DNA of 64,000 nt. Source: Yponomeuta sedellus (Eukaryota > Arthropoda > Insecta > Lepidoptera > Yponomeutidae). Shown here in pieces: positions 11,501-15,182 of the stretch. Where the stretch lies: the NCBI GenBank assembly GCA_934045075.1, contig OW203721.1:14044678-14108677 (forward strand), in the 5' to 3' direction. Every line of letters begins with the position of its first letter. Position 1 is the first letter of the stretch. The notes under the pieces were generated by a model that made no database searches, was not told the origin of the DNA, and worked only from the letters and a program-made list of their open reading frames with translations. A program made the position numbers and the translations under genes.

Positions 11501-14116
11501 TTATGTAGAAGATTTTTAGCTTCCAGAGCTAGAATATTTTTTGGATTATTTTTATGAATACTTTTTTCTTGGAAAGATTCTCGTTGAGCGGACTCTTTCT
11601 TTTCCAATCGGCGCGCGATTTAGATAATTATAATATATAGTATTTTCTAAGGTTAACACAAGTACTAGACATAATTAAGACTGTATTGATACGGATTTCA
11701 CTCGTTTATTATATTTTTACAATTTTCCGACGTTTCGGCACTTTTACAGGTGCCGTGGTCTCGGATGTCATCCGATAATAAACGAGTGAAATCCGTATTA
11801 AAACAGTCTTAATTCATTATAATATAATTAAGTCAAAATTAACGTTACGGACACGACAATATTATTGTGATGTCATCGTTTTTCCTGTAATGTTACGAGT
11901 TACATTACAGGAAAAACGATAACATCTGAAATAATTATGTATCTCGGATGTCAACCGCTAACCCACTGCCGCTAGATTAGTTGAGTTGATATCAACCCTT
12001 TGTATCTACCCCCCACTGCTGGGGCACGGGTCTCTTACTGCATTGCAGGAAGGTTGAGCCTTACTCCACCATGGGGGTTATGTCCAGGTAGCTAGAGAAT
12101 TGTAAGATAGTGGCGGGCGTTACTGTCAAAAGTTATCAAGCCATAATGTAAGGTATATATTGTCTTCGTTTTAATGATATGAGTAAAAATTACTCTAATT
12201 TTGCTTGAACGAATTAAGCGAGACTATAGGATTTAGCAACTAACTGACATTGTATGCAGCTACGTTTACGGGATCTAGCCAAATGACTCTACGTACTGCA
12301 CCGGGATAGTCTGTATAATTGCCACATGTGCAGATGCAACGTACTTGTACGAAGCAACCCGTGGTGGCTGGGGCAGCGAGGATAGAATAAGTACGGATTA
12401 TAATACGCTAATAAGGTAACTCTTTTGAGCCACATAGGCTAGTACTGAAAACTATCCAAGCCAATGGCGAGCTAGAGCTCTTGGCAGATATTTTCACACG
12501 TCTTAAGATAAGATAAGAATATTCTTTATTGTACACTGGAAAAACAACAAATACAAAATAATTGCAAATATACTTAGTACAATTGGCGGCCTTATTACTA
12601 AAAGCAATTTCTTCCAGACAACCTTACTATGGAAAGTTGCTGAAGGAAATTAGAAAGACGGGTAGCCAGTGCAAATTTGAATATTGATACATACTTACAC
12701 GTCTTAACTTGCCGGCAGCGATCATTTACCAAACCACATCCAAGACCCGGCGCTCGGCTGTGGTTACACTATCGTTAGATAATCACTTTTCAGAAGATCG
12801 ATACTGACCAGTATGCGTTCGTTTATGCGCCTTTAGATGCGAACTCTTGGTGTAGACTTTATCGCAAGCCGGGAACTCGCATCGGTGCACGCGGCGGCGT
12901 GGATCCGTCAGGGTGAGTGGGTGAGTGTGTGAGTGCGGCCGCACTGTGGAGTGTGGTCTGCGCACTGGCACTGGACTTGGGGGCGTTTCGTCTGGAAAAC
13001 AGGAATGAGACTGTTTAGAAGGGAAAATGGCGCCGAGCGTAATAGGGTAAGTAAGTAACTAACAGGAAAGGTGCTTATCTTAAAACTTAAAATGTACATG
13101 AATTGGCGATTGACATTGTCTCCCGCACTAGGTAAAACCTGTCTCGCGGGAACCTGATTAGACCAAGAATCTTAGAAAGGTACATTTGCTCTGTTGTAAA
13201 GCCCAGATAGAAGTAAGAACTTGTAAACAGAATCAGGTCATTGATTCAACTGGTGTACGATATCAATTAGAGAAGTAAACCTCTACTGATGGAATTCTAT
13301 ATAGAAGGACAACTTAATTCTACATGAAGGAAGGAATCACTACAATAATGTACGTTCAACGCAAATCGATAGAATTCCCATTACCATAATGAGTAGGACA
13401 AATCGTTTAATATCATTTAAATGATCAGCAAATAATTAAGGTTTGGTCAGCAATAAACATTTAATGTGTCGCTCAACGAAATAACGGAACAGAGCAGCGG
13501 AGCGGATCATGTAAAATAGATCAGCTCTTAATTTGATTTACGTCGACAAATATTGGAAAGCTGTAGAATTAATTTTGGTCAGTGAATGGGATACACAGGT
13601 CATCCACTTGGGTGTCTAATATTAACTATATTTTAAAATGTTTTGAGTGAAACGAGTCTGAGTGGTTCACTTCACACTGGTACAGACGACGCTTTCGTTA
13701 CTACGCTGTCAAAGTACCTAACTATTATGCAGACAAAACCTGCTCCAAAATCATCACCACGGAATAGTCCGGGGTGATGTTAATGACGCCACAACTAACA
13801 AGCGGGCATAACGCTTCTCCGTCTCCACTTACCATAGTGAGATAATCTGTCTTACGTTATTTTACGTACAAATTGTTTGTAGGTAAGGCGTGCCCGTGCA
13901 GGTACCGTCGAAGCAGCGAAGGCATTTAGTCAAAGTTAACTAACCTCTGGGTTCGTCCGAATCGCTTGGAGGTTCGCTCTTGACGGCGACTACCTCCAGT
14001 AAGGGTGGGGAAGGAGGGGACGCAGGCTCTGACCGAGCCCAGTCTTCTTCTGGGGGCCGCTCTCTCCTTTTGCATCGGGGCTCCTCCCGGAGATATCGCT
14101 CCATTTCGTAACATGT
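8340..14116 (-). CDS. luna: Krueppel-like factor 6/7 (luna) orthologue, C-terminal three exons
   Basis: Nuclear C2H2 transcription factor expected to bind GC-box/CACCC DNA. Exons 14116-13945, 12991-12809 and 8515-8340 all have AG/GT borders and join in phase 1 (codons G|AC and G|GC). The product visible here is about 176 residues. It starts with TCYEMERYLREEP, which matches the TCLELERYLQSEP motif of vertebrate KLF6/7. It continues with a Pro/Ser/Glu-rich linker containing VKSEPPSDSDE, then fingers 1-3 (CEFPAC.., CSWEGC.., CRHC..) ending LHAKRHA. The HCDRCFSRSDHLALH third finger favours KLF6/7 over KLF5 or KLF3/8/12. The N-terminal exon (about 35 residues, starting near MDVLP in known members) is missing and presumably lies far upstream. 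The linker is shorter than in human KLF6 (283 residues in all), so extra or alternative exons may have been missed. Exon structure is seen directly; function is inferred from the family. Confidence 0.88.
8650..8707 (-). mobile_element. tRNA-like SINE head remnant
   Basis: The minus strand reads GGTGGTAGCGCAGTG (A-box-like) followed by a decayed B box. No full tRNA fold. Lies inside a luna intron. Confidence 0.4.
10232..10300 (+). pseudogene. possible mariner/Tc1 transposase crumb
   Basis: The frame GLLFHHDNAP followed by a stop resembles the HDNAP block around the second catalytic Asp of mariner-type transposases. Only about 16 codons are readable, so this is tentative. Confidence 0.3.
10240..10495 (+). 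repeat. dispersed repeat family L
   Basis: Shares taatttcgttgctgc, taggcgtcaatg and ctgtcatggtactataatg blocks with copies at 21600 and 52115. Type not known. Confidence 0.5.
11003..11175 (+). mobile_element. tRNA-derived SINE, family I
   Basis: The head TGCCTCGTTGACTCAGCGG has an A box, and GTCGCGGGTTCGATTTC a B box. An unrelated body with tga-rich tail follows. Related copies on the minus strand lie near 26790, 30204 and 34110. Confidence 0.7.
11673..11814. mobile_element. MITE with 39-bp terminal inverted repeats
   Basis: Left arm 11673-11711 and right arm 11776-11814 differ at two positions. The interior is about 64 bp and contains CCGACGTTTCGGCAC. No coding capacity. Confidence 0.8.
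11875..11920. repeat. 19-bp perfect hairpin
   Basis: Arms 11875-11893 and 11902-11920 are perfect reverse complements with an 8-nt loop. Not associated with a recognised element. Confidence 0.85.
11985..12160 (-). mobile_element. RTE-like LINE tail, family D, fragment
   Basis: The minus strand carries GTGGAGTAAGGC, GAGACCCGTGCCCCAGCAGT and a terminal AAGGGTTGATA block shared with seven other copies. Confidence 0.65.
12505..12660 (-). mobile_element. LINE 3'-end fragment, family F
   Basis: Carries tttattgtacac, acaattggcggcctta and tcttccagacaacc blocks shared with copies near 22107, 36602 and 44618. The gata-rich tail lies on the left. Confidence 0.6.
12809..12991 (-). CDS. luna: luna/KLF exon with linker and zinc finger 1
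   Basis: 183 nt. The acceptor is gttttccag|ACGAA and the donor ACTG|GTCAGT. The split codons give Asp at the start and Gly at the end. It encodes DETPPSPVPVRRPHS, a His/Thr-rich linker, the basic RRRVHR lead-in, then finger 1. The finger has Cys-x4-Cys, twelve residues, then His-x3-His; its recognition helix is KSSHLKA and the linker HTG. The KSSHLKAHKRTHTG stretch is diagnostic of the KLF family. The intron to the previous exon is 953 nt. Confidence 0.92.
12992..13944 (-). other. luna intron before finger 1 exon
   Basis: 953 nt with GTTAGT donor and gttttccag acceptor. No repeat was recognised, so it is one of the cleaner stretches in the window. Conserved or alternative exons here cannot be excluded. 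Confidence 0.75.
13945..14116 (-). CDS. luna: luna/KLF exon with acidic activation motif
   Basis: 172 nt. The acceptor is a pyrimidine-rich tract ending tttccag before ACA TGT; the donor is AGAG|GTTAGT. It encodes 57 residues plus the first base of a split codon. The start, TCYEMERYLREEP, is the conserved hydrophobic/acidic N-terminal motif of KLF6/7. The rest is charged and Pro-rich (SPPSPP-like), then VVAVKSEPPSDSDEPR. VKSE followed by acidic serines is a negatively charged SUMO consensus. The exon start is also the first unit of a five-copy tandem duplication reaching to 15182. Only this unit continues into the full exon; the duplicated homology ends at about 14083, roughly 34 nt into the exon. 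Phase 0 at the acceptor agrees with the human KLF6 exon 1/2 junction, as I recall it. Confidence 0.88.
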
Positions 14117-14287
14117 CTGGAAATGTAAAGAGTAGTAATTCAGAGAGCTACGCAAAAACAATGGTTGAACACGTGGGGTGGTAATGGGAATTAGGGTGGA
14201 AATACGCAAAAACTATCTAGCTTAGAAATGTTATTTGGATGTTTTGCTAGGTAGTATTTTATCTCCGAACCATTTTTTAATATCTAC

Positions 14288-14341
14288 CAATCTAAGCCTA
14301 CTGAGCTTTTCACGGAAATATCGTTCCATTTCGTAACATAT
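14288..14341 (-). other. duplicated luna exon start, open 54-nt microexon candidate (unit 2)
   Basis: The acceptor tttctag is kept. The reading ICYEMERYFREKLSRLRL is open for 18 codons to a GTAGAT donor at 14287. The phase is 0 at both ends, so inclusion would add 18 residues without shifting the frame. Whether it is spliced is unknown. Confidence 0.45.
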
Positions 14342-14522
14342 CTAGAAATGCCAAGAGTAGTAATTCAGAGAGCTATGAAAAAACAATAGTTGGACACGTG
14401 GGATGATGATGTTAATAAGGGTGGAAATACGTGTGCCGGGATGCAAAAAGTGTCTAGCTAAGCAATGTTCTTTTGATGTTAAGTTAGTGTTCTATCTCCG
14501 AACCAATTTTTTATGTTTATAC

Positions 14523-14576
14523 CAATGCAAGCTTAGCGAGCTCGTCCCGGAGATATCGCTCCATTTCGTAACATGT
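14523..14576 (-). other. duplicated luna exon start, open 54-nt microexon candidate (unit 3)
   Basis: The acceptor tttctag is kept. The reading TCYEMERYLRDELAKLAL is open for 18 codons to a GTATAA donor at 14522. The first ten residues are identical to the real exon. Phase 0 at both ends. Confidence 0.45.
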
Positions 14577-14754
14577 CTAGAAATGCCAAGAGTAATGATT
14601 CAGAGAGTAATGCAAAAACAATGGTTGGATACGTGGAGTGGCAATTGGAATAGGGGTGGAAATACGTGTACCTGGATGCAGAAGGTATCTAGCTAAAAAA
14701 ATATTTTCATGTTTTAAAACTGAAACTATTTTCATTATATCTACCAATGTAAGC

Positions 14755-14798
14755 CTACCGAGCTCCTACCGGAGATATAGCTCCATTTCGTAACATGT
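14755..14798 (-). pseudogene. decayed luna exon-start duplicate (unit 4)
   Basis: The acceptor AG has become AA (tttctaa before ACATGT). The reading TCYEMELYLR ends at an in-frame TAG. Confidence 0.6.
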
Positions 14799-14964
14799 TT
14801 AGAAATGCCAAGAGTAGTGATTCAGATATACGTGGGGTGGTAATAGGAATAAGGGTGGAAATACCTGTGCCTGGATGCAAAAAGTGTCTTGCTAAGCAAT
14901 GTTCTTTTGATGTTAAGTTAGTGTTCTATCTCCGAACCAATTTTATGTTCCTACCAATGTAAGC

Positions 14965-15008
14965 TTACCGGGCTCCTACCGGAGATATCGCTCCAAATCG
15001 TAATATGT
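14965..15008 (-). pseudogene. decayed luna exon-start duplicate (unit 5)
   Basis: The acceptor AG is kept (tttctag). The reading TYYDLERYLR ends at a TAG at the same codon as in unit 4. This is the unit furthest from the real exon. Confidence 0.6.
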
Positions 15009-15182
15009 CTAGAAATGCCAAGAGTAGTGATTCAGAGAGAATGCAAAAACAATAGTTGAATACGTGGGATGGTTATGGGAATAGGGGTGCAAATATGTGT
15101 TCTTGGACGTAAAAAGTATCTAGGTAAGCAATGTCATCTTTGAAACCAATTTATATATATATCTACCAATGTAAGTCTACCA

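Follow-up and report, generated by a model that had tools for sequence, protein, structure and literature searches.

Splice-site copies at the end of luna intron 1

What becomes of splicing when the 3′ splice site that ends a very long intron has been copied several times over, ahead of the original? The question is raised by luna, a KLF6/7-type gene of Yponomeuta sedellus (Lepidoptera, Yponomeutidae), part of which lies on the minus strand of a stretch of 64,000 nucleotides (nt) from contig OW203721.1 (assembly GCA_934045075.1, positions 14,044,678 to 14,108,677), hereafter the window, in whose coordinates features are given. Over the predicted boundary of luna intron 1 and exon 2 lie five units in tandem, each 210-235 nt long and together spanning 14077..15186 on the minus strand. 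Judged from the DNA itself, the partial tandem duplication is real, takes in a 3′ splice site and was found at one locus. The extra copies of this diverged local duplication we tentatively read as weak decoy acceptors, through which a small fraction of luna transcripts would become truncated messages.

A repeat search, Tandem Repeats Finder, self-BLAST and an alignment of the units all recover the array. The repeat search returned five copies at spacings of 225, 235, 222 and 210 nt; Tandem Repeats Finder reported 14206-15143 with a period of 235, 4.1 copies, 67% matches and a score of 692; self-BLAST gave E-values down to 5e-167. A first inspection of the letters alone (the sequence-only reading) had proposed a five-unit tandem duplication with a spacing of 210-235 base pairs at this boundary, and the measurements bear it out; its placement of the array at 14083..15182 is corrected to about 14077-15186.

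Each unit joins 170-195 nt from the end of luna intron 1 to the opening 39-40 nt of exon 2, rather than to the roughly 34 shared coding bases first supposed. The complete exon 2, 172 nt long, continues from the innermost unit (u1) only. The other four (u2-u5) break off after exon base 39-40 and run straight into the intronic beginning of the following unit; the piece that was duplicated therefore comprises the end of the intron plus the start of the exon, and no whole-exon copy with both splice sites is found. The acceptor copies end at 14117 (the real site), 14342, 14577, 14799 and 15009. As had been claimed, the four extra copies are all transcribed ahead of exon 2: u5 comes first, u4, u3 and u2 follow, and the real site is last.

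When the array was searched against the 657.5-Mb genome of the species itself, with very common words skipped by the search, it matched only itself (two overlapping places, E up to 0.001). A 27-nt exon pattern, allowed up to three mismatches, occurs five times in the genome, always within the array, and its reversed control occurs nowhere in it. No further copy was found in the remainder of the 77-kb intron, where the best match outside the array is 36 nt long (E 0.025). Since the array occurs at one locus, a satellite or transposon was rejected, in agreement with the earlier view that it is neither a transposon nor a whole-exon duplication; the same array at many unrelated loci, which would have spoken for a satellite, was looked for in this genome and only the one locus was seen. 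The upstream intronic parts differ by 10-31% between pairs of units (0-42% between copies per window of 50 alignment columns), which argues against a single unit stuttered in assembly. A structured RNA was rejected as well: 13000-16000 has no Rfam match at the gathering score.

The luna gene

On its protein matches the minus-strand gene is luna, as the sequence-only reading had it. Exon 2 (13945..14116) starts in phase 0 at TCYEMERYL, ends in phase 1 at GAG/GTTAGT (the slash marks the splice junction) and has homology to lepidopteran luna. Exon 3 (12809..12991), with a CCAG acceptor and a CTG/GTCAGT donor, encodes the first zinc finger, and exon 4 (8340..8515) encodes zinc fingers 2 and 3 and the stop codon; all three exons are on the minus strand, have AG acceptors and GT donors wherever these are due, and agree in phase. 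Joined, they translate into 176 amino acids that match lepidopteran luna proteins, the best match (among the best 120 of 3898 matches) being that of Parnassius mnemosyne, with 82% identity over the full query. For comparison we used P0001-P0035, the 35 best of the 3898 matches, of which 33 were aligned and two read separately; 25 of these proteins span the junction of exons 1 and 2. The three C-terminal C2H2 fingers of KLF type are present and, with exons 3 and 4 aligned to the 33 proteins, nearly invariant.

Exon 1 lies outside the window on the same contig (contig positions 14136248-14136349, minus strand). It encodes an N-terminal peptide identical to that of Parnassius at 34 of 34 residues and is followed by a CAG/GTAAGAG donor, which places 77,454 nt of intron 1 between exons 1 and 2.

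Splice signals and reading frames of the copies

Splice sites were scored with matrices of approximate metazoan frequencies, not trained on this species, so all scores are generic. The authentic acceptor in u1 (14077..14301, minus strand, as are all units), CTTTACATTTCCAG, scores 9.5, beside 11.3 and 9.2 for the acceptors of exons 3 and 4, and belongs to the top 0.8% of the 2,596 AG sites in the intron part of the window. Units u2 (14302..14536, acceptor at 14342), u3 (14537..14758, acceptor at 14577) and u5 (14969..15186, acceptor at 15009) share the acceptor CTTGGCATTTCTAG and score 5.7, 6.1 and 5.7. In u4 (14759..14968) the acceptor is lost: the copy reads CTTGGCATTTCTAA, with AA at 14799, scores -4.9 and is preceded by a 23-nt alignment gap. 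The acceptor was said to recur five times; AG is kept in four of the five copies and in three of the four extra ones. The word functional is not borne out for the extra acceptors, which score lower than the real site and have lost one AG. Within the last 11 intron bases, three sites set the real acceptor apart from all four copies (TA for GG in the tract and C for T at -3), and they favor the real site on the generic matrix.

At best u5 combines an acceptor with a good donor. Its AG is followed by a 40-nt pseudo-exon (15008-14969) and then by the donor-like CCG/GTAAGC, which scores 10.2; across the 48,814 nt of intron that precede the array, 4 sites reach that score. The two signals of u5 are a candidate splice-site pair for a decoy exon, although comparable pairs occur twice in the same 48.8 kb. 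Unit u4 has two fair donors (7.7 and 6.0) and no acceptor, while u2 and u3 have acceptors and weak donors. Read through in the frame of exon 1, u5 and u4 each meet TAG at codon 11, u3 reads TCYEMERYLRDELAKLALV and stops at codon 20, and u2 has 36 open codons before a stop at codon 37, so that all four read-throughs terminate ahead of the zinc fingers. Inclusion of u5 or u4 would bring in a premature stop, as expected of a decoy or poison exon.

Variation among the copies and their origin

In the three extra copies that keep AG, variation is unevenly spread. The least variable part of u2, u3 and u5 is a 60-nt module directly before the acceptor (14117..14176 in u1, with copies at 14342-14401, 14577-14636 and 15009-15068, all on the minus strand). 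Directly ahead of AG, 7 of 59 alignment columns vary among these three units; farther upstream the figure is 46 of 113 (p = 0.0001), and in the exon-like stretch it is 12 of 40 (p = 0.037). Of the 59-column windows in the unit, the one with the least variation is exactly -59..0, ending at AG (p = 0.004 in a permutation scan made after the -60 boundary of the module had been fixed). Constraint on an encoded peptide was considered and rejected: the exon-like part varies more than the pre-acceptor part in these units, so the peptide does not look conserved.

Identity between units is mosaic. Units u2 and u4 are 90-100% identical upstream of about -75, u3 and u5 98% identical near the acceptor, and u1 and u4 95% identical near -75. 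Because u2 and u4 have this nearly identical upstream stretch in common, the array probably arose in several rounds, at least two, of unequal exchange or gene conversion, with a later event linking those two units. With the Heliconius mutation rate of 2.9e-9 per site per generation, pairwise divergences of 0.20-0.28 would correspond to about 40-60 million generations, and that of u2 and u4 to about 18 million; these dates are rough and ignore conversion.

Possible decoy acceptors or inert relics

How, then, might the copies act? The polymerase would make u5, u4, u3 and u2 before the real site. Being transcribed ahead of the real junction, by up to 892 nt, the decoys would have a head start, of about 36 s for the outermost copy at the elongation rate of 1.5 kb per minute assumed in PMC6110457. 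U2AF and U2 would bind the decoy acceptors, and u5 could pair with the strong donor downstream of it to give the 40-nt pseudo-exon with its in-frame stop. The decoys would mostly be outcompeted: the real site is predicted to win in most cases because its tract is less interrupted, it has C at -3 and a complete exon with its own donor stands behind it. Where splicing did enter u2, u3 or u5 and reading went on, a stop before the zinc fingers would yield a truncated product. In human OGT, decoy exons with U2AF-bound 3′ sites affect a long intron, engaging the spliceosome and rarely being spliced in (PMC12017769). Pai et al. (PMC6110457) describe long fly introns as seemingly less accurately spliced with increasing length and number of decoy sites, and suggest that until the correct 3′ site appears, after a long wait, only wrong ones are at hand. 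By analogy, the same may hold for luna.

A more elaborate version of the decoy reading goes further: four weak yet recognizable copies of the gene's own site would form a ladder of acceptors that works as a kinetic attenuator of luna, the fraction lost to u5 through u2 setting the full-length output and the real site having been strengthened to escape its copies. We think this rather unlikely.

A number of observations weigh against use of the decoys. The three decoy acceptors are only in the top 5-6% of the 2,596 AG sites, and two more pseudo-exon pairs (25-60 nt) as good as that of u5 occur in 48.8 kb of the same intron. There are ten sites unique to u1, seven of which lie further upstream, at -75 to -185, so the three differences at the acceptor need not mean selection. 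A tail derived from a decoy appears in none of 11 short luna-like proteins, none of which is known to come from this species; ten of them continue past WQQ with V, as expected for intron read-in, and the remaining one, P0134 of Iphiclides, continues with another sequence. The conservation before AG is also less secure than the best scan implies, since u2, u3 and u5 are the most favorable of five groupings scanned. The others gave p = 0.021 (u1, u2, u3, u5), 0.051 (u2-u5), 0.061 (u1, u3, u5) and 0.185 (all five). The TCYEMERYL part does not differ significantly from the whole intronic part (7 of 29 against 52 of 148, p = 0.29), and u2 and u4, the pair most alike upstream, show no difference between near and far positions (4 of 37 against 13 of 134). 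As identity between units is mosaic, gene conversion limited to the pre-acceptor stretch could give the same conservation, and neutral decay alone predicts AG in at least three of four copies with P = 0.66-0.81. Taken with the weaker groupings and possible conversion, this neutral-compatible retention of AG makes the conservation signal for function suggestive only.

It is only somewhat less probable that the copies are inert: the duplication would be the same, the spliceosome would ignore the decoys, and the units would drift neutrally. The AG retention, the one dead acceptor, the weak donors of u2 and u3, the unexceptional ranks of the decoy acceptors and the fading of the conservation signal in other groupings all fit such a relic. 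What it does not readily explain is the exact coincidence of AG with the end of the least variable 59-column window in u2, u3 and u5, although gene conversion may mimic this.

Other explanations fare less well. The array could be a nursery of small in-frame cassette exons, with u2 and u3 used as 54-nt open exons of 18 codons that repeat TCYEMERYL. The distance from AG (AA in u4) to a GT is indeed 54 nt in all four copies, without insertion or deletion, and the frames of u2 and u3 are open; yet the donors at +54 score just 2.6 (u2) and 0.3 (u3), and none of the 25 junction-spanning proteins has a doubled TCYEMERYL. A luna isoform of Spodoptera litura (P0025) carries an insert of 27 residues exactly between WQQ and TCYEMERYL, which agrees with the start of exon 2 at 4 of 13 positions in register (reached by 0.7% of shuffles by identity and 4% by BLOSUM), but the match is weak, the register was picked after inspection, and the insert finds nothing below E 0.19 in this gene. 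We consider this explanation improbable. Slightly less credible still is multiplied regulatory DNA, the units repeating a transcription-factor site, such as CACGTG in u1 and u2, within an intronic enhancer: luna intron 1 is large and CCACGTG stands in u1 and u2, but u3, u4 and u5 read CCACGTA and the least variable block adjoins AG, though its far edge comes near the motif. An assembly error, or a satellite or transposon overlapping the exon by chance, is scarcely credible, for although tandem arrays are prone to both, the units differ by 10-31% and sit at one locus with no further copy in the 77-kb intron.

luna exon 2 in other Lepidoptera

The comparison with related Lepidoptera that the sequence-only reading called for was made on proteins. 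In predicted luna proteins of Cydia, Leguminivora, Choristoneura and Bicyclus, the later part of exon 2 appears to be present more than once. Four pairs of repeats were picked by eye (Bicyclus, two in Cydia, Choristoneura), and for every pair 0 of 1000 shuffles reached the observed score; the Leguminivora repeat was judged by eye. These repeats, read from predicted proteins, suggest that luna exon 2 tends to duplicate in tandem in Lepidoptera; the array described here seems to be a version of this that caught the 5′ boundary. The two share gene, exon and tandem arrangement; they differ in that the repeats of the other species multiply the later coding part, whereas the array multiplies the 5′ boundary.

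Several further observations concern these proteins and the intron. Repeated segments of the form W..S.SPP.P.LF.V.AVK.EPPSDSDE occur in luna proteins P0007, P0009, P0018, P0031, P0034, P0121 and P0122. The in-frame insert of S. litura P0025 (a cluster of 8) at the WQQ/TCYEMERYL junction is possibly an extra exon; its homologue was sought here by tblastn in the window and the rest of intron 1, with the result given above. P0134 (Iphiclides) and P0123 share a similar stretch after luna exon 1, running from PKPTMFLTSV.. or PKPTIFLTPV.. to YYYGTCLRHD or YYAGTCLRHN, perhaps an alternative exon or intron sequence. Intron 1 also holds two other tandem repeats reported by Tandem Repeats Finder, TAGA in 184.5 copies with 100% matches (49384-50121) and a 152-nt unit in 1.9 copies with 88% matches (37192-37484), and a zero-length site resembling those of recursive splicing, TTTTATGTTTTTTATGTAACAG/GTAAGTAA, at 47931 on the minus strand (intron position 43640). 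The score of this site on an approximate metazoan matrix, 21.8, is the highest in the 77-kb intron (best antisense site 18.6) and was reached by 7 of 100 Markov simulations; splicing there would divide intron 1 into 43.6 and 33.8 kb.

Relation to known systems

About 10% of animal genes are said to be affected by tandem exon duplication (PMC9013439, citing earlier work), a class that includes mutually exclusive exons. As in the luna array, exon sequence is repeated side by side within one gene, together with a splice site. The luna copies differ in that they take in 39-40 of 172 nt plus the acceptor, lack the authentic donor and run into stops when read through. We regard the array as a new form of partial tandem exon duplication. 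No array of copied 3′ splice sites was noticed in the titles and abstract openings of the open-licence PMC papers listed, which is not proof of absence.

The decoy exons of retained introns described for OGT, ARGLU1 and SF3B1 (PMC12017769) are pseudo-exons with their own 3′ and 5′ sites in a long intron and a predicted stop, to which u5 is a candidate counterpart. In OGT the decoy is a single exon flanked on either side by two alternative sites, for which PMC12017769 presents evidence from binding, mutation and deletion, whereas luna has four copies homologous to its real acceptor, at best one of them with a good donor. The origin of novel introns by tandem duplication (Lehmann et al. 2010, PMC2891723) also starts from a partial duplication in tandem that takes a splice signal along. 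That model requires a duplicated AG/GY proto-splice site inside coding sequence; the luna piece is an intron end plus an exon start, and the copied exon piece contains no AGGY. Units u2 and u4 do have an AGGC, read by eye, immediately beyond the junction, in intron-derived sequence.

Implications

If the decoys are unused, little may be needed to silence a copied acceptor: a change of three bases, or no complete exon behind it. If they are used, the locus would be a natural competition experiment, in which the same acceptor stands at five distances and in a known order of transcription where a very long intron ends, with the dead u4 copy as an internal control. Kinetic (first-come) and strength-based choice of 3′ splice sites would then be separable in vivo, and luna would reveal how a gene tolerates or exploits the duplication of part of an exon.

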